DNA from: a virus
DNA length: 35,173 nt
Reading direction: 5' to 3' (one strand)
Virus record (IMG/VR): IMGVR_UViG_3300023174_000393
Span: 1-35,173 of that record
Made by a program: the position numbers and the translations under genes. Shown piece by piece: positions 17,961-34,934 of this stretch. How positions within the stretch are numbered: position 1 is the stretch's first letter; each line of letters starts with the position of its first letter. Under the pieces are notes generated by a model. That model was not told the origin of the DNA, searched no databases, and was given only the letters and a program-made list of their open reading frames with translations.

Positions 17961-19217
17961 TTAAGCATTAGCAATAGTTACTAATGAGTAAGGTTGACCT
18001 GCATCTGCATTAGCATCTGCCGCAGTATTGAATGTTACATATACTGGTGTAGCATTAGCAAGAACAATGTTACCTGTAGCAATTGGACCAGATGTAGCAG
18101 TAAACAACTCGCCTGTGTGATCAGATAGACTCTGAACTGTTTGAGTAGCACTGTTAGCATATGTAGCAAGAATACGCATTGTGTTTGGTGTCAATGCTGT
18201 ATTAGCAACGTTAGCCAATAAACATTGTGATGTTAAACCAGTTGTTCCACCTGTTACTAGATACTTCTGTTTACCTTTTTGACGAACAATAAAACCTGCT
18301 TCATCATCTGCATAAACGAATGCGGCTCCTGTTGATGCAACGGATGCATTTGCAACTAGTTGAACTACGTCTTGCTGTGCATTTGGTGTACCAGTAGCAT
18401 TTGATAGAGCAACTTCTGCACCACCTAATGTGTTAGATACAGTGAATGCGGATGCATTAGCAATTGCTTTAACAAAATAAACTTGTCCAGAAACTAAACC
18501 GCCCAAATTAGCAGTAAATCTTACTGTACCATTAGCAAGCAATGTCTGAGCATTACCTGAAGTACCAATGATGTTACCTGTATTTTGTGTATTAGCAACA
18601 GCAACTGTTGTTAACCCAGGAACTGCGTTAGCAAAACCTATAGTGGTGTAATCTGTGCTACCGTTAATGTTTGCACTTGCTACTTGAATAGCAGAACCAA
18701 CACTTAATGTATTGGCTAAATCAGTACCAATACCAGTTACATATGCAGTATTTGTGGCAGAATACAATGTACCTGTACCATTAATACCAATAGCAACACG
18801 TGGTAGAACCTGTGGGCCAATGATTGCTGTGTTACCACCAACGACAGAGTATGTATTGCTGTTTGTTGTTGGGAAACCAACACCACCGTTTGGATTGTTG
18901 AAATATGCATCAACTACACCAACTGAAGTTGATACTGTTGTACCAGATGTACCACTCAAGTTAACTGGAGTATATGTTGGATTTGCACTTAGTTCTGTTG
19001 CAGATACTGTAAAAGTTGTGTTACTTGTTACATTTAAAATCCAGTAAGTTGTGTTAGCAGTTAAGCCACCTGTTGTACTTGCTGGAATAAATGGCATACC
19101 TTTGATAACACCCAAAGTTGAGAGGTTTTGAGAAACCGTTACTTCTTCAGTTGTTGCATTTGTAGCCGTGATTGTTAATATGGCTTGCGCCTTTGCGATT
19201 TTTAGAGGACGTCCCAT
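17961..19217 (-). CDS. Virion structural protein, Ala/Thr/Asn-rich beta modules
   Basis: 418 aa. It opens MGRPLKIAKAQAIL, an N-terminus like unnamed structural proteins of T4-like cyanophages. Two copies of an extracellular beta module follow, recognisable by GLTANTTYWILNVTSNTTFTV (about 50-70) and GLVSGQVYFVKAIANASAFTV (about 238-258). Between them is NTYSVVGGNTAIIGPQVLPRV; near residue 310 lies a conserved GFIVRQKGKQKYLV strand. It is preceded by a long, highly structured leader and an own late promoter (19303-19310), so strong late expression is likely. Head decoration, tail or fibre association are all possible. Confidence 0.6.
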   Translation of the reverse strand: MGRPLKIAKAQAILTITATNATTEEVTVSQNLSTLGVIKGMPFIPASTTGGLTANTTYWILNVTSNTTFTVSATELSANPTYTPVNLSGTSGTTVSTSVGVVDAYFNNPNGGVGFPTTNSNTYSVVGGNTAIIGPQVLPRVAIGINGTGTLYSATNTAYVTGIGTDLANTLSVGSAIQVASANINGSTDYTTIGFANAVPGLTTVAVANTQNTGNIIGTSGNAQTLLANGTVRFTANLGGLVSGQVYFVKAIANASAFTVSNTLGGAEVALSNATGTPNAQQDVVQLVANASVASTGAAFVYADDEAGFIVRQKGKQKYLVTGGTTGLTSQCLLANVANTALTPNTMRILATYANSATQTVQSLSDHTGELFTATSGPIATGNIVLANATPVYVTFNTAADANADAGQPYSLVTIANA

Positions 19218-19239
19218 TTGTTTTTCCTTAATGTTATGT

Positions 19240-19294
19240 GCGGGTTCTAGCCGCTACGCAGTGGGTTACTGCATAAACTCTCCGAATTGAGAGT
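19240..19294 (-). promoter_or_regulatory. Three-hairpin 5' leader of the 418-aa structural gene
   Basis: In transcript order: ACTCTC-AATTCG-GAGAGT (19277-19294), GCAGT-AACCC-ACTGC (19258-19272) and GCGG-CTAGAAC-CCGC (19240-19254). They lie between the late promoter box and the AAGGA ribosome site and are clearly richer in G+C than the surroundings. An ATG-CAG-TAA mini-frame overlaps the second hairpin. Confidence 0.6.
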
Positions 19295-30046: not shown

Positions 30047-30601
30047 TAGGTTCATATGCACAGCAACAAGCCATGAATAACTTATGGCATGCGACTGCTT
30101 GAATGTGTATCCGTCAGTACCCTTATCCCATACAGTTTTAGCAATCTCACTCCATCGTTTACCTATTAAATGTTTTTTACCGGGACGGATAACAGCTAAA
30201 AACATAGCTAATCTAGGGATACTATCTACTGGTTCTGGCATCTTTTGTAGATTGTAGTATTGATTGTTTAAGTGAATCAATTTCTCTACAAATACAGGAT
30301 CTTTAAGCTTACTCCAATCAGGTTCATGCATCAACTCTAATAGATGTTGTTCATCACGAACCTGATTATAAACATGAACATTCAACAAATCTAGCTTGAA
30401 ATAGCCACGTTTATCCGCAATAGTATAATCAATACTAGACATATTATTGACCGGATCATATGGTACATCTGTAATATAAACACCTGTTGCATGTTTACGC
30501 ATTGGTTTTACATTACGCATTGCCGCCGGAGTATGCTTAATAAGCTGTAATAACTTATCTCTATCACCAAAGTCAATATCAATATCGCTATCAATTTTCA
30601 T
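30038..30601 (-). CDS. Miniature DNA polymerase III alpha-like protein
   Basis: 187 aa that reads like a condensed C-family polymerase palm. SDIDIDF (5-11) matches the PDFDVDF motif of DnaE (catalytic D401/D403); KHATGVYI (36-43) matches KHAGGVVI; GYFKLDLLNV (66-75) matches GLVKFDFLGL with D71 at the third catalytic Asp; LAVIRPG (135-141) matches ALFRPG; FKQSHAISYSWL (167-178) matches FNKSHSAAYALV. All appear in the DnaE order, but the intervening finger, PHP and C-terminal domains are absent (DnaE is about 1160 aa). It ends a string of overlapping genes and overlaps the cytidylyltransferase by 4 nt. Activity is unknown; relatives exist in T4-like cyanophages, by memory. Confidence 0.7.
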   Translation of the reverse strand: MKIDSDIDIDFGDRDKLLQLIKHTPAAMRNVKPMRKHATGVYITDVPYDPVNNMSSIDYTIADKRGYFKLDLLNVHVYNQVRDEQHLLELMHEPDWSKLKDPVFVEKLIHLNNQYYNLQKMPEPVDSIPRLAMFLAVIRPGKKHLIGKRWSEIAKTVWDKGTDGYTFKQSHAISYSWLVAVHMNLLG

Positions 30602-31068
30602 TTCTTAATCAATTCTGTAGAGTGTTGTGGAATATCAACTGCATTATCTTTTGTATTTTCTAACATAGCAACTCTAGCACGTAGGTCACTGGAACTATAG
30701 TTATGCTGTCTCTTATGATAATACAATTCAATACCATTGTCAATACAATATTGTTTTCCGGTAAAATCTCTATTCAGGTATTCTTCACTTAAAAAACGTA
30801 TATGTATGGTCTGGGTCATTAGTAATTGAAGCAAGTCATATTCTGTTGAGTACACCAATATTTCATCCACATACTTACACGCCTGCAATTGAACATAACG
30901 TTCATATACACTTTGACATGGTTTGTTTTTAATGCCCGGTCTGTCAATAGTAGGATCAACTTGTAATGCTACTATGAGATAGTCACATAACTCTTTTTCC
31001 ATTTTTAACATTGTTACATGTCCGGCATGTAATAAATCAAAACTACTACAATTAAATCCTACTTTCAT
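30598..31068 (-). CDS. Cytidylyltransferase-like nucleotidyltransferase (TagD/RfaE type)
   Basis: 156 aa. The N-terminus MKVGFNCSSFDLLHAGHVTMLKMEKE holds the HxGH nucleotide-binding motif (H14-A-G-H17) in the usual [GT]xFDLLHxGH setting, followed by CDYLIVALQVDP and a VYERYVQLQACKYVDEILVYS segment typical of glycerol-3-phosphate cytidylyltransferases and ADP-heptose synthases. The family C-terminal TxGIS-type motif is replaced by NYSSSDLRARV. It transfers CMP or AMP to a sugar or polyol phosphate. It lies between the RmlC-like gene and the mini-polymerase with 4-nt overlaps on both sides. A link to surface-sugar chemistry is inferred from the RmlC-like neighbour. Confidence 0.82.
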   Translation of the reverse strand: MKVGFNCSSFDLLHAGHVTMLKMEKELCDYLIVALQVDPTIDRPGIKNKPCQSVYERYVQLQACKYVDEILVYSTEYDLLQLLMTQTIHIRFLSEEYLNRDFTGKQYCIDNGIELYYHKRQHNYSSSDLRARVAMLENTKDNAVDIPQHSTELIKK

Positions 31069-31526
31069 TTATCTTTCTCCGAAAGTATAGGATTTATGTT
31101 TGTGGGCCATTCAATTGAATATTGATTCCATTTAAATTTTTCTTCAATGCTTTTATCATATGGCATATCTACTATATATTGTACTATTGTTTTTTCAGTT
31201 AGAGCCATATAACCATGTGCATAATGTGGGGGGACAAGTAAACCATTAGTTTCATCTAATTCAATAGCAAACCATTTTCCAGACTCTGGCTCTAATGCTA
31301 CATCAAATATTTTACCTACTACAGGCATAACCAGTTTATATTGATTTTGTCTGTGCATACCACGAACAACATATTGTGTTGATGTTGCTGTGTTTAATTG
31401 ACGAAATGTCCCACGCATTTGATCGTCTGGTATTTTCCATGTTTCACAGAAATCACCACGATTGTCTTTAAATTTAGTGTGTTCAATGAACTTTAAACCA
31501 GGTAACATTTCGCCGTATATTTTCAT
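31065..31526 (-). CDS. rfbC: dTDP-4-dehydrorhamnose 3,5-epimerase-like protein (RmlC/RfbC family)
   Basis: 153 aa, slightly shorter than typical RmlC (about 180 aa). The cupin hallmarks are present in order: DNRGDF (21-26), QLNTATSTQYVVRGMHRQ (43-60) with the catalytic-type His58, GKIFDVALE (71-79), and VPPHYAHGYMAL (98-109), then a KFKWNQYSIEWP end. The family WNDP-type acidic residue at the C-terminus appears as Q135, so the exact reaction may differ from rhamnose synthesis. In bacteria RmlC acts in dTDP-L-rhamnose formation for surface polysaccharides. It overlaps the exonuclease and cytidylyltransferase genes by 4 nt (ATGA) each. Confidence 0.85.
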   Translation of the reverse strand: MKIYGEMLPGLKFIEHTKFKDNRGDFCETWKIPDDQMRGTFRQLNTATSTQYVVRGMHRQNQYKLVMPVVGKIFDVALEPESGKWFAIELDETNGLLVPPHYAHGYMALTEKTIVQYIVDMPYDKSIEEKFKWNQYSIEWPTNINPILSEKDK

Positions 31527-32083
31527 TTAGGTGCTACCAATTCTGCTTTAATTAATTTCATATATGCTTTCTGTACAACAATAGCTTGTCGTTCTGCATC
31601 TTCTACTGCTTTGTGGCTTGTGGTGTGACCACCATCTTTAAGTTTCACACCCGTAATATCGTAAATAGTTCTAGTATCTCTAATAGTCCAGAAAGGCCAG
31701 GGAATAGGATTAGGTTTGTTGCTTGTTTGTCTAAATGCATTTTCCATTACAACTACGTCAAAGCTCGCACCATTGCTCCAAACAGCATCACGATTCCAAC
31801 AAAACTTATAAAGTATCTCCATACATTCTTTGAATGGAATACGTCCATTGTCACCCATTGCTTCTTCAAGTGCTTCAGGACTTTGCTCACTCCACCAACG
31901 TAAGGTATCTTCATTAATACTTCTATTGTAAATTTCTGTTTGATCCTCAACTGTAGGACGTAGTTCTAATCGTTCTACGACCCCTTGTCCTTTAGGATCA
32001 AATCTTACTGCACCAATGGTTAGTATAACACAATCAGGTGTTGTATCTAAACTCTCAATATCTATCATAATGTGATTTGCCAT
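31523..32083 (-). CDS. dexA: 3'-5' exonuclease, DexA/DnaQ-like (DEDD family)
   Basis: 186 aa. Exo I motif IDIES at 7-11 (D8, E10); Exo II region VWSNGASFDVVVMENAF with its Asp; PFWTIRDTRTIYDIT; Exo III HTTSHKAVEDAERQA with His and Asp. The NEDTLRWWSEQSPEA stretch and the WTIRDTRTI motif match T4 DexA-type and Rv2179c-like exonucleases. T4 DexA is 227 aa. The activity removes 3' nucleotides from single-stranded DNA or RNA. It starts 1 nt after the preceding small gene and overlaps the RmlC-like gene by 4 nt. Its presence near a polymerase-III-like protein is interesting, but proofreading is only a guess. Confidence 0.87.
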   Translation of the reverse strand: MANHIMIDIESLDTTPDCVILTIGAVRFDPKGQGVVERLELRPTVEDQTEIYNRSINEDTLRWWSEQSPEALEEAMGDNGRIPFKECMEILYKFCWNRDAVWSNGASFDVVVMENAFRQTSNKPNPIPWPFWTIRDTRTIYDITGVKLKDGGHTTSHKAVEDAERQAIVVQKAYMKLIKAELVAPK

Positions 32084-32084
32084 A

Positions 32085-32435
32085 TTATGCCTGTAATGTT
32101 TTCCAAATATATTTTTTCTCTAAGTAATCCTGAAACTTTAGTGCTTCATCTTCATTATTAAATACTACACCTTTAATCTCATACATATCTTCTAGGTATC
32201 TAGCGTAGTCTCCATTAATATCCCGTGCCCATGTGTTTAAGTTAATCCACATAATATCAACTTCATCACTCATACGTAATATACCTATACCAACTTCATC
32301 ACTACCAATATCACCAAATAACACATCTAATAGTCTTTTCTTTGTATCAAAACGTCTAATATTCTCCCACTTAGGCCATGATACTATAAATTTACCATCT
32401 TGTAAAGATTTTATGGGAAAGGGTGTATTGTTCAT
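32085..32435 (-). CDS. Small unknown, possible diverged member of the array family
   Basis: 116 aa: a strand-rich N-terminus (GKFIVSWPKWENIRRF), VDIMWINLNTWARDINGD in the middle and a VVFNNEDEALKFQDYLEKK end. The NTW-x-R-D-x-N-G segment and the V-x-F-x-N-x-E-D-A-x-x-F helix entry resemble the small array proteins encoded upstream, but the LRW ending is replaced by a longer helix. It overlaps the preceding small gene by 4 nt (CAATGA). No function recognised. Confidence 0.55.
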   Translation of the reverse strand: MNNTPFPIKSLQDGKFIVSWPKWENIRRFDTKKRLLDVLFGDIGSDEVGIGILRMSDEVDIMWINLNTWARDINGDYARYLEDMYEIKGVVFNNEDEALKFQDYLEKKYIWKTLQA

Positions 32436-32698
32436 TGGAATTTTAATAAAAATAATAGGTACTTCTTCTCGTCAATAATCTCATAACCATCAGTTATGTT
32501 ACCATTAACTATGTTCATCTTTATACCATATTGTCCTACAAGGTAATCTTCAAAATCATATGCGTCAAACTCTTTATTTTGTGCCATATATTCTTTACGC
32601 ACTAGTTTTAATGCTGCCCAATAATCCCATCGTTTTTTACGTTGTTCCATTAATGGATCATCGTCATCATAATCTTGTATTTTGGGAATTGATGCCAT
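32432..32698 (-). CDS. Small array protein (ends LLFLLKFQ)
   Basis: 88 aa from the ATG at 32698, which lies in TTGATG with the stop of the upstream gene; AGGTGG, the upstream gene's R-W codons, is 5 nt away as ribosome site. MASIPKIQDYDDDDPLMEQRKKRWDYWAALKLVRKEYMAQ is more helical and charged than in its neighbours, but the closing DEKKYLLFLLKFQ has the family spacing of K-x-x-x-x-F-x-L-K-aromatic. It is the most diverged clear member. Function unknown. Confidence 0.6.
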   Translation of the reverse strand: MASIPKIQDYDDDDPLMEQRKKRWDYWAALKLVRKEYMAQNKEFDAYDFEDYLVGQYGIKMNIVNGNITDGYEIIDEKKYLLFLLKFQ

Positions 32699-32925
32699 CA
32701 ACTCCACCTCAATATGAATAATAGTCTATCATGATCGTTCTTAAAAAGATACGTACTACGAGTTTCCATACCTTCAACTATGCCTGCCATAGGGTCCATA
32801 CCCAATTTATACCAAGACTCATTCCATAGACCAATATTATCATTACACCATTGATCTACTTCAGGCCATTCATGTGTAGTATATGCAGGTAATTTTAATT
32901 CTTCATTGAATACAGGATAAGTCAT
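32698..32925 (-). CDS. Small array protein (ends LLFILRWS)
   Basis: 75 aa from the ATG at 32925, whose ATGA includes the stop of the upstream gene; TTGAGGTGG just before provides the ribosome site. MTYPVFNEELKLPAYTTHEWPEVDQWCNDNIGLWNESWYK has the family central W-[CL]-x-[DE]-N-[IV]-G motif, followed by TRSTYLFKNDHDRLLFILRWS at the end. An aromatic, acidic, soluble protein with no signal or membrane segment. Confidence 0.7.
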   Translation of the reverse strand: MTYPVFNEELKLPAYTTHEWPEVDQWCNDNIGLWNESWYKLGMDPMAGIVEGMETRSTYLFKNDHDRLLFILRWS

Positions 32926-33164
32926 GACCACCTCAACGTAAACATGATGTAATCTTTTTCATATCTAAATTTAAAATTAACAGTATTTGTATCGCTTACA
33001 TACCATCTGCAATGTCGTTCACATTTACCTACGTTAGTATATAACCAATCAATTATTTCAAGATATTGGTCAATATGTTTTGCTTGTACAGCACGTTCAT
33101 GCCAGCCGGGTTTAGTGTGTTGCCAACCATTTGCTTCATCATAATGGTCGAACCTTATTGCCAT
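32922..33164 (-). CDS. Small array protein (ends IMFTLRWS)
   Basis: 80 aa from the ATG at 33164 (MAIRFDHYDEANGWQH). The central motif is YLEIIDWLYTNVGKCERHCRWYV and the end is FKFRYEKDYIMFTLRWS. The ATG lies inside the A-TGG of the upstream gene's penultimate Trp codon, giving a 10-nt overlap. Its own L-R-W codons, TTG-AGG-TGG, form the ribosome site for the next gene. Confidence 0.7.
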   Translation of the reverse strand: MAIRFDHYDEANGWQHTKPGWHERAVQAKHIDQYLEIIDWLYTNVGKCERHCRWYVSDTNTVNFKFRYEKDYIMFTLRWS

Positions 33165-33412
33165 CTTAATATGAACCACTCAGCATCTTGTTTCTTTTTA
33201 AAGATATATCTTGTGCTTAAGTTTTTCCATTTACCTGTGCAGTTTTGTTCAAGCCAAGTATTGATATCTATTGCTTCTTCATTATTATAAAATCGTTTTA
33301 ACTTAACATTTGTCCAGCCTGTTTCAACCAAACAATCAGCCACAATATGCCAGTCCATTTCATCAGATATCTTTTTGCTAAAATCATCTAATATATCTTC
33401 TCTTAATCCCAT
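33155..33412 (-). CDS. Small array protein (ends AEWFILRWQ)
   Basis: 85 aa: MGLREDILDDFSKKISDEMDWHIVADCLVETGW, a longer helical N-terminus than in other members, then DINTWLEQNCTGKWKNLSTRY and IFKKKQDAEWFILRWQ at the end. The start ATG is made from the VW codons (GTA-TGG) of the upstream gene, a 10-nt overlap. The closing K-[KQ]-D-A-x-W-F-x-L-R-W is the clearest form of the family signature. Confidence 0.7.
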   Translation of the reverse strand: MGLREDILDDFSKKISDEMDWHIVADCLVETGWTNVKLKRFYNNEEAIDINTWLEQNCTGKWKNLSTRYIFKKKQDAEWFILRWQ

Positions 33413-33633
33413 ACTAAACTAAACCATGTTGCTTTCTCTGGATCATCAAACTCTACCACACAATAAGGTCTACCCATTTGACCTCTTGGTGCTACTTCGT
33501 GACCTATAGTTAAATGCCAGCCTTCCCCGTGCCAAAAAATAATAGGCTTATAATGTAGCATAATTCCCACATTGTCTTGTAGCCATTGTAACACAGGTGC
33601 GTATGGCTGATATACTTTTATGGTCAAGCCCAT
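33403..33633 (-). CDS. Small array protein (ends ATWFSLVWD)
   Basis: 76 aa from the ATG at 33633 (MGLTIKVYQPYAPVLQWLQDNVGIM). It carries the central LQWLQDNVG motif, a GEGWHLTIGHE strand and the end VVEFDDPEKATWFSLVWD. The ATG arises from the K-W codons (AAA-TGG) of the upstream gene, a 10-nt overlap. The Arg/Lys before Trp is Val in this copy, and its own G-TA-TGG again supplies the next start. Confidence 0.7.
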   Translation of the reverse strand: MGLTIKVYQPYAPVLQWLQDNVGIMLHYKPIIFWHGEGWHLTIGHEVAPRGQMGRPYCVVEFDDPEKATWFSLVWD

Positions 33634-33842
33634 TTTAACTGAAACCACACTGCATCTTTACTATTAGCGAAATAAATACGCCTCTTATTATAATCACCAT
33701 CTACTGCATGAAAATCCTCAGCATCATAACAGGCAGGGTCAATGTTATCTACTAACCATTGACGCATCTTGTAATGATGTTCAGTAGTTATTTTTGTATA
33801 AACTACTGGTATATTACAATAATCTATTTTACTCATTGCCAT
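33624..33842 (-). CDS. Small array protein (ends AVWFQLKWA)
   Basis: 72 aa from the ATG at 33842; an ATG five codons upstream (33857) is also possible. MAMSKIDYCNIPVVYTKITTEHHYKMRQWLVDNIDP shows the central QWLVDNI motif and the end is RRIYFANSKDAVWFQLKWA. The chosen ATG overlaps the K-W codons of the upstream gene (10 nt), the same geometry as at two neighbouring junctions. Confidence 0.68.
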   Translation of the reverse strand: MAMSKIDYCNIPVVYTKITTEHHYKMRQWLVDNIDPACYDAEDFHAVDGDYNKRRIYFANSKDAVWFQLKWA

Positions 33843-34078
33843 TTTAGTAAAAACCATTCTAAATCTTTTTTATCACGGAACCAAAACTTACTATTGTTCA
33901 TATACCATCTGCCATGTGGTTCCCATACACCATTTGCAGGTGTGCAACCAAATGTGTTGATACACCATTTTTCTATATCGTGCCAATCTTGATGATACCA
34001 AAAAGGCTCATATGCTTTTATGTCAGGATCAACAGTATAGTATGTTTCTCCAAATATTTTCCCGTCACTTAACTTCAT
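33833..34078 (-). CDS. Small array protein (ends LEWFLLKWQ)
   Basis: 81 aa from the ATG at 34078 (MKLSDGKIFGETYYTVD). Central DWHDIEKWCINTFGC, then NGVWEPHGRWYM and the end FWFRDKKDLEWFLLKWQ. The ATG is the ATGA that contains the stop of the upstream gene, preceded by TTGAGGTGG. The DIEKWC motif is closest to AEWC and DQWC of two other copies. Confidence 0.7.
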   Translation of the reverse strand: MKLSDGKIFGETYYTVDPDIKAYEPFWYHQDWHDIEKWCINTFGCTPANGVWEPHGRWYMNNSKFWFRDKKDLEWFLLKWQ

Positions 34079-34506
34079 GACCACCTCAACATAAAATGAA
34101 TATAATCTTTCTCATTGGTAAATGCTAAAAACCAGTAATCACTTCCACCTATTTCATTTACTTCCCACTCATCGTCCCTAGTTTTAATAACACGCTCAAA
34201 ATCATAACGATGTTTATGTTTTAGATTTTCACTACACCATTCTGCTATTTCATGGTACCCGTATTTGTGTCCACCGGGGCCATAGTCGTACAATGGCTGA
34301 TAAGCATAATGTTTGTGTTCTGTTATAGGATAGATATACTTGTATCCAGGATAACAATCAACTATTCTTGTAGCACGACCATTGTAACCTGTGTCATACT
34401 TACGACGGTACATATGCCAGGTTACGCACCCACTCTTTTTGAGTTTTCGTTCTGCCCGATATTTTCTAATACGGGCTTTTAGCCTATGTATAAATCTGTA
34501 TAACAT
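34075..34506 (-). CDS. Array protein with basic N-terminal extension (ends IHFMLRWS)
   Basis: 143 aa, the longest member. A basic N-terminal helix (MLYRFIHRLKARIRKYRAERKLKKSG) precedes a Tyr-rich region, then the family unit: YDYGPGGHKYGYHEIAEWCSENLKHK, DYWFLAFTNEKDYIHFMLRWS. The extension could bind nucleic acid or membrane phosphates. A TTTACA/TATAAT element (34512-34540) sits immediately upstream, so this gene may have its own promoter with no leader. Its L-R-W codons TTG-AGG-TGG serve as ribosome site for the next gene. Confidence 0.65.
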   Translation of the reverse strand: MLYRFIHRLKARIRKYRAERKLKKSGCVTWHMYRRKYDTGYNGRATRIVDCYPGYKYIYPITEHKHYAYQPLYDYGPGGHKYGYHEIAEWCSENLKHKHRYDFERVIKTRDDEWEVNEIGGSDYWFLAFTNEKDYIHFMLRWS

Positions 34507-34511
34507 AGTAT

Positions 34512-34540
34512 ATTATACATCAACTGTATTTTATTGTAAA
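34512..34540 (-). promoter_or_regulatory. Possible internal sigma70-type promoter in the array
   Basis: TTTACA (34535-34540), 17-bp spacer, TATAAT (34512-34517) on the minus strand, overlapping the end of the 71-aa gene. The -10 ends 5 nt before the ATG at 34506. The AT-rich context makes a chance match possible. Confidence 0.45.
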
Positions 34541-34735
34541 GAAACTGGCGTTACTATCGTTGTAAAAGATAAACATGGTATATCTTTGACTAGGAGGTTC
34601 ATGACCAAAACTATCCCATTCCGATTTATAATGGGCAAAGTCAAAGTCTTTACCTATAACCCAGCCCATTTGTTTTAGTTCATATACTATTTCTAATGTT
34701 CTGGTTACATTAATGTATATTTTTACCTGTAACAC
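34520..34735 (-). CDS. Small array protein, GTG start (ends SFFTIKYS)
   Basis: 71 aa. No in-frame ATG exists near the start, and GTG at 34735 has GGGG 6 nt upstream (formed by the last codons of the upstream gene), so a GTG start is likely. VKIYINVTRTLEIVYELKQMGWVIGKDFDF looks like a short alpha/beta unit; the end RYTMFIFYNDSNASFFTIKYS keeps the family F-x-x-x-x-x-A-x-F-F-x-[IL]-K-aromatic spacing, with Tyr in place of the final Trp. Diverged member. Confidence 0.6.
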   Translation of the reverse strand: MLQVKIYINVTRTLEIVYELKQMGWVIGKDFDFAHYKSEWDSFGHEPPSQRYTMFIFYNDSNASFFTIKYS

Positions 34736-34736
34736 T

Positions 34737-34934
34737 TCAGCCCCGTGTTAGTTCAAAAAGTATAGCATCACGTTCATCCTTGAAATAGAAATCCAGATAT
34801 TCTTCAGTAGCGTGTGTCTCGTATCTATCACCGGGTAATCCAAAATGTTCTACTGCCCAAACACAAGTTCTATTCCACTGATGAATATCATGGTTTACTT
34901 GCCATGGTATACGAACTCTAGTACCCGCCCGCAT
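34737..34934 (-). CDS. Small array protein (ends AILFELTRG)
   Basis: 65 aa: MRAGTRVRIPWQVNHDIHQWNRTCVWAVEHFGLPGD, with a central CVWAVEHFG corresponding to W-L-x-x-N-x-G, and a YLDFYFKDERDAILFELTRG end that keeps F-K-D-E-R-D-A-x-x-F-x-L but has lost the final R-W. The ATG overlaps the end of the partial gene upstream by 17 nt. It is the first member visible in transcription order; more may lie outside the window. Confidence 0.62.
   Translation of the reverse strand: MRAGTRVRIPWQVNHDIHQWNRTCVWAVEHFGLPGDRYETHATEEYLDFYFKDERDAILFELTRG

Follow-up and report, generated by a model that had tools for sequence, protein, structure and literature searches.

The window analyzed here is the virus record IMGVR_UViG_3300023174_000393 (the whole stretch, 35,173 nt). 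On its minus strand, at positions 32432–34934, ten small genes lie head to tail, and by profile evidence they are one protein family, three members being placed by profile comparison and one of these weakly. The genes very probably make up a modular, translationally coupled array. That their products are host- or defence-directed binders is proposed with more reserve, at slightly under an even chance.

The open reading frame (ORF) list contained ten tandem frames in this region, where an earlier note on the same DNA had counted about nine. The ten products align, with a central W and the ending F-x-F-x-x-x-x-D-A-x-x-F-x-L-R-W-x. Each member (P0001–P0010) was searched with a profile of the others, as the earlier note had suggested: seven of ten were clearly recovered (E 3e-10 to 1.3e-4), no other ORF of the window competed, and P0001 (E 1.8), P0009 (E 0.23), and P0005 (E 0.05) were weak cases. 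When separately aligned subfamilies were compared profile to profile, the P0004, P0005, and P0010 types matched the rest at ~98%, the P0009 type at 94% (over the C-terminal 20 columns only), and the P0001 type at 68%. After iteration of the profile through related loci, all ten window genes were found at E 1e-5 to 1e-23. In 1.76 Mb of related loci, 685 of the 685 family matches outside the window had the same orientation as the exonuclease or polymerase gene next to them; because all of them share the strand of the anchor gene, chance is excluded and false positives are rare. The array of diverged genes with one C-terminal signature, and the single family that the note had read from it, are therefore real. 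The gene next to the array, P0011 (32085–32435), was considered as an eleventh member, having a somewhat similar ending, and was rejected at 2% in the profile comparison.

The note had also recognized no named family in this ending, which agrees with the database searches. No significant Pfam or PHROG match was obtained for the ten genes, nor for the common domain in 108 representatives; strong matches among the latter were confined to capsid-derived N-terminal parts. The PDB yielded no match to the family and no solved structure that stands out, and literature searches found no paper on the array protein family.

Most annotated GTG starts were too long; the likely start is an ATG that overlaps the end of the preceding gene by 1, 4, or 10 nt. 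The features of the region are given below; subfamilies are those obtained by single linkage at 45% (53 groups).

34737–34934, minus strand: P0010, first array gene, 65 aa, conserved core subfamily 4; its start, the 5' end of the array, overlaps the upstream phrog_11058 gene by 17 nt.
34520–34735, minus strand: P0009, 71 aa, conserved core subfamily 1; AlphaFold2 model beta-alpha-beta-beta-alpha, predicted local distance difference test (pLDDT) 88.
34075–34506, minus strand: P0008, 143 aa, subfamily 17, with a basic N-terminal extension of ~80 residues.
34075–34090, minus strand: junction repeat GTTGAGGTGGTCATGA, copy 1; the end of P0008 serves as predicted Shine-Dalgarno sequence and ATG of P0007.
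33833–34078, minus strand: P0007, 81 aa from its ATG; 4-nt overlap with P0008 (ATGA); AlphaFold2 model beta-beta-alpha-beta-beta-alpha, pLDDT 85.8.
33624–33842, minus strand: P0006, variable, subfamily 22; start within the terminal Trp codon of P0007 (10-nt overlap).
33403–33633, minus strand: P0005, variable, subfamily 6; 10-nt overlap with P0006.
33155–33412, minus strand: P0004, 85 aa, subfamily 3; 10-nt overlap with P0005.
32922–33164, minus strand: P0003, core subfamily 2; 10-nt overlap with P0004.
32922–32937, minus strand: junction repeat GTTGAGGTGGTCATGA, copy 2; the end of P0003 serves as predicted Shine-Dalgarno sequence and ATG of P0002.
32698–32925, minus strand: P0002, variable, subfamily 13; ATGA overlap with P0003 after TTGAGGTGGTC.
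32432–32698, minus strand: P0001, last array gene, core subfamily 0; TGATG overlap with P0002; the weakest member (profile probability 68%).
32085–32435, minus strand: P0011, conserved neighbour, translationally linked to P0001 by an ATGA overlap at the 3' end of the array; family membership unsupported.
31523–32083, minus strand: DnaQ-type exonuclease (phrog_255), downstream of the array; synteny anchor.

The basic 80-residue extension of P0008 recurs in array members from three other phages and has no further match.

The joints between the genes were examined in the window and in related loci. Among 468 member-to-member joints with a nearby in-frame ATG, the offset was −4 in 240, −1 in 101, and −10 in 72, so that 341 of the 468 have the −4 or −1 overlap typical of termination-reinitiation; in the window, eight of the ten joints from P0010 through P0011 overlap. 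At −4 and −1 joints, the L-R-W codons are usually TTG-AGG-TGG, which places a GAGGTG Shine-Dalgarno core directly before the next ATG (GAGGTG present in 187/341). At −10 joints, a codon ending in A precedes TGG, and the start codon lies across this A and the Trp codon. AGG encodes the terminal Arg in 44 of 82 clusters, whereas at other sites 35 of 431 codons are AGG (Fisher p 6e-20). It was used at 120 of 163 joints of the −4/−1 type against 0 of 22 of the −10 type, where it is unusable. All four −10 joints of the window (P0007/P0006, P0006/P0005, P0005/P0004, and P0004/P0003) have TGG-TT (W-F) ~11–16 nt before the start, which could replace the absent Shine-Dalgarno sequence.

Such a strong synonymous bias to TTG-AGG-TGG at coupled joints would also be expected if the shared ending were mainly a nucleotide signal, the ribosome-binding site of the next gene, and no evidence of common protein ancestry. 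As a full explanation this is refuted, and we hold it to be extremely improbable; as a partial one it is true. Members in Phosso, a cultured Sinorhizobium phage, that have no coupled neighbour keep the same amino acids (F-K-L-x-W/F) with CGC or CGT as the Arg codon, and homology extends over ~60–80 residues with a shared predicted fold. The motif is therefore constrained by the protein, and its codons are additionally co-opted, the synonymous choice being set by the next gene.

The joints are also the main exact repeats inside the arrays. Of the maximal exact repeats of at least 13 bp, 109 of 140 had both copies at joints (~1 expected), and repeats of up to 25 bp were found at the joints of one locus (L111). 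In the window array, the GTTGAGGTGGTCATGA pair is the sole exact direct repeat of at least 13 bp. Every cassette is flanked by short homology that preserves the frame and the ribosome-binding site; since the junctions are the main repeats, each gene can be regarded as a cassette with its own translational joint. From the repeats, the turnover described below, and one kind of chimera, we infer recombination at the joints.

Loci of relatives were found using single members and neighbouring genes as queries, with the exonuclease and polymerase genes as anchors; the family alignment has no conserved stretch suited to searching viral contigs directly. The related sequence analyzed contained 1123 member ORFs, some of them repeated in overlapping loci. 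The number per anchored locus ranged from one or a few at contig ends up to 19, and a further locus set had up to 22 matches (L224); syntenic arrays in related jumbo phages have 4 to at least 22 members. Written as ordered subfamilies, the arrays extend from 4-1-2-0 to strings of 17 members. The commonest is 4-1-3-2-0, that of the window is 4-1-17-3-22-6-3-2-13-0, and that of the largest close relative is 4-1-17-42-49-11-12-24-3-29-23-32-22-6-3-2-0. Core members occupy the flanks and variable members the interior. Group 3 consists of two types linked by chimeras; in the chimera of locus L036, the N-terminal part is identical to the P0004 type in 28 of 32 positions and the C-terminal part to P0007 in 40 of 69.

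Paralogues within one array have a median identity of 22% (95th percentile 31%, 99th percentile 35%), whereas orthologues of the window members in other phages are 60–93% identical. The array is thus an assembled, non-redundant set of old paralogues, and the expansion by tandem duplication proposed in the earlier note is not supported as a recent event by these identities; the note's suggestion of a kept set of variants fits, the members being non-redundant and each subfamily conserved between phages. In 34 subfamilies, the median omega was 0.21 and the highest value 0.37, which rules out pseudogene decay and indicates that the genes work, each subfamily in a conserved role of its own. The set of genes turns over between close relatives, with purifying selection acting on each subfamily.

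A set of this kind could alternatively represent subunits of one hetero-oligomeric complex, kept in fixed ratio by the coupling, with the variable members as optional subunits and assembly linked to replication. Nearly all joints are overlaps of the coupling type, and short overlaps are over-represented where the products are subunits of a heteromeric complex (PMC10666635); the skeleton 4-1-...-3-2-0 recurs in most arrays, and the locus lies amid replication genes. Against such a complex are a copy number of 4 to at least 22 and an order that differs between lineages, the scatter of Phosso members over 470 kb in several clusters, and the unrelated N-terminal extensions of several members. We consider it rather unlikely.

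For the fold, AlphaFold2 models of two of the ten members, obtained from different alignments, were compared. P0007 was predicted as beta-beta-alpha-beta-beta-alpha (pLDDT 85.8, predicted template modelling score [pTM] 0.74) and P0009, from its separate alignment, as beta-alpha-beta-beta-alpha (pLDDT 88, pTM 0.72). In both models the signature forms the last helix, not the aromatic strand described in the earlier note. The note's one conserved fold was recovered for these two subfamilies, which share a predicted beta-alpha-beta-beta-alpha core. Foldseek matched only uncharacterised proteins of uncultured phages, some of which were common to the P0007 and P0009 lists. Among solved structures, the neighbours of P0009 were ferredoxin-like (ACT, RRM, PII, and Pcc1; best Z 6.8), with the last strand of beta-alpha-beta-beta-alpha-beta absent; the best Z for P0007 was 5.5. 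The modelled core may be ferredoxin-like, a common arrangement and no guide to function.

Nucleic-acid-binding regulators of the RRM/ferredoxin-like kind, for example translational repressors or mRNA modulators acting on phage or host transcripts, would be compatible with this core, with the RRM, Pcc1, and E2-type neighbours at Z 4.7–6, and with a median of ~16% aromatic residues (F/W/Y), which could serve stacking. Z values below 8 may nevertheless reflect the common arrangement only, and the conserved aromatics would suit a hydrophobic core equally well. The median isoelectric point is 5.7, most window members are neutral or acidic, and no conserved basic surface motif was seen. Such regulators appear distinctly unlikely. 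DNA mimicry was set aside as well, the overall charge not being strongly negative.

Among cultured phages, a profile built without Phosso sequences matched 46 places in Phosso, 5 in the Agrobacterium phage Atu_ph07, and 3 in the Pseudomonas phage Paride; with the Phosso members added, 55, 7, and 3 were matched. The proteins of Phosso, Atu_ph07, and the Paride/PA5oct group thus belong to the same family by profile and are annotated merely as hypothetical. In Phosso they end in D-A-x-x-F-K-L-x-W/F and form several clusters, unlike the one large array here. At E 0.05 there was no match in T4, S-PM2, S-B43, HTVC008M, phiM9, RaK2, XacN1, SCTP-2, Vibrio 2.275.O, CcrColossus, phiKZ, or Bacillus phage G, and phiM12 gave one marginal match. 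The expectation that T4-like cyanophages carry the family ending was dropped, as the T4-like phages searched (e.g., S-PM2) gave no match at this threshold. Searches of cultured phages with single members (tblastn) returned nothing useful, the Phosso relatives being detectable by profiles only, and in bacterial genomes nothing credibly related to the P0009 subfamily was found (one match of 36 residues).

A shared terminal module attached to a variable remainder is the expected look of a packaging tag, and the products might be minor virion or ejected internal proteins like those of T4, whose internal-protein loci are likewise variable. The three PA5oct members (EST35_0247, 0274, and 0275) lack the electrospray ionization tandem mass spectrometry (ESI-MS/MS) note borne by the virion proteins of that record, although small proteins can escape detection, and the array sits among replication genes, away from the head genes. 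This origin is judged highly unlikely.

The array virus is a large bacterial virus, probably from fresh water. The window encodes a very large tail sheath protein (phrog_10581), as in a myovirus, together with a DnaB-like helicase and a primase; a DNA polymerase III-alpha fragment and the DnaQ-type exonuclease both follow downstream of the array. By protein comparison, the closest cultured relatives are Phosso, Atu_ph07, and the PA5oct/Paride group, all jumbo phages. A freshwater-2 RNA (Rfam RF02980, 67 bits) is present at 19215–19294 on the minus strand. Because of this RNA and of the relatives in the Atu_ph07/PA5oct/Phosso jumbo group, the association with marine phages made in the earlier note is probably wrong. 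The end of the RNA coincides with the start codon of a 418-aa gene (17961–19217) that has no PHROG match. A TagD-type cytidylyltransferase gene (30598–31526, minus strand) lies amid the replication genes and adjoins an rfbC-like epimerase gene; its DNA is 73–74% identical in cyanophage S-B43 and relatives. In a 352-kb relative, a UvsW-like helicase gene and other replication-type genes, identified by reading translations, precede the array. We infer that the array is co-transcribed with the replication genes and is thus expressed at early or middle times.

In several relatives, one subfamily has a segment of a T4-type major capsid protein before the common domain (PF07068, 6e-13). Such members occur inside arrays on about a dozen contigs (for example L218:5953-6336 and L222:5953-6360 among loci L212–L224, where the N-terminus is a selected gp23-type capsid fragment), omega is ~0.18 in the capsid-like part, and a full capsid gene is located elsewhere in the same 364-kb genome as one of them. 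The segment aligns to residues 91–132 of T4 gp23, in its first quarter. A Phosso member (L188:21927-22304) carries a fragment of the opposite, C-terminal end (PF07068 positions 306–354, E 9e-6), and stand-alone small proteins of 69–165 aa have the same capsid segment without the array domain (L226:5923-6129, L227:5890-6135, and L228:5677-6171). T4 gp23 has the Gol segment in its first quarter; this segment binds EF-Tu and is an activator of the Lit protease (PMC3014915). The capsid segment of the relatives falls in the same quarter as Gol, whereas the window genes have no such segment; decoy or EF-Tu action of the fusions is putative, and decoy action of this subfamily seems possible but doubtful. 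Other N-terminal extensions contain a P-loop-like GRQTGKS and/or a ribonucleotide-reductase-like NLCKEI patch (L215:9618-10088, L178:2122-2526, L130:2582-2983, and L218:5379-5717), which family searches did not confirm.

The array may accordingly be described as a modular accessory kit inside an operon of replication genes. The last codons of each cassette encode the helix motif at the C terminus and, at most joints, also supply the ribosome-binding or start site for the gene that follows; cassettes would be gained, lost, and fused through recombination at the short joint repeats. With the same codons used for protein end, ribosome-binding site, and recombination joint, any cassette could be inserted in register and translated at once. 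The proteins are predicted to be made early and together, in amounts coupled by termination-reinitiation. The panel of small binders raised in the earlier note is still the favoured guess at their function. If each binds a different host or defence protein, as we suppose, the locus would be a hypervariable anti-host or anti-defence island, and to judge from the fusions with capsid segments in relatives, some members at least could be decoys of phage proteins sensed by the host. The complete scheme, in which the conserved protein end is both the next ribosome-binding site and the recombination joint and the cargo on the common domain includes the phage's own capsid fragments as defence decoys, is unlikely to hold in full.

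Several observations weigh against the proposed anti-host kit. The low omega indicates constraint and gives no sign of an arms race, and the presence of the core subfamilies in nearly all arrays would suit a fixed function better than a weapon that can be dispensed with. The joint repeats follow partly from the shared amino-acid motif. No capsid-like segment was found in the ten genes of the window, and promoter and terminator scans gave nothing above chance level, so the early timing is drawn from the gene neighbours.

The analysis names a large undescribed protein family, with ~50 genes in one cultured phage, and gives a sequence-level account of a phage gene array that is hypervariable yet always translatable. 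It also picks out a small set of proteins as candidates for host takeover or anti-defence action, and through the capsid-segment fusions the question of phage decoys of host-sensed proteins becomes directly testable.

Jumbo phages are already known to have tandem gene arrays (PMC5646251, PMC7824862). Tandem paralogues in jumbo phages of the phage G/121Q type were read in 2017 as gene duplication, with copies that are "very similar" (PMC5646251); the members here are, by contrast, ~22% identical and non-redundant, so that neighbours are not very similar. Phage G has no match to the array family, and 121Q was outside that search. A large paralogue family in one jumbo phage is also represented by the lineage-specific zinc ribbon expansion of Bacillus phage G, with ~35 copies (Iyer et al. 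2021, PMC7824862). Its fold is different: the array family has no conserved zinc-binding Cys pattern. The array family also occurs in another group of jumbo phages. The −4 and −1 nt overlaps are the same as those of ATGA and TGATG gene pairs coupled by termination-reinitiation (PMC6728339, PMC10666635), but here a coupling element stands at nearly every joint, is written into conserved C-terminal codons, and is accompanied by a third class, with the start inside a Trp codon (−10). Novel here are the protein family as such, how deeply non-redundant it is, its dual-coding joints, and the members that carry capsid fragments.

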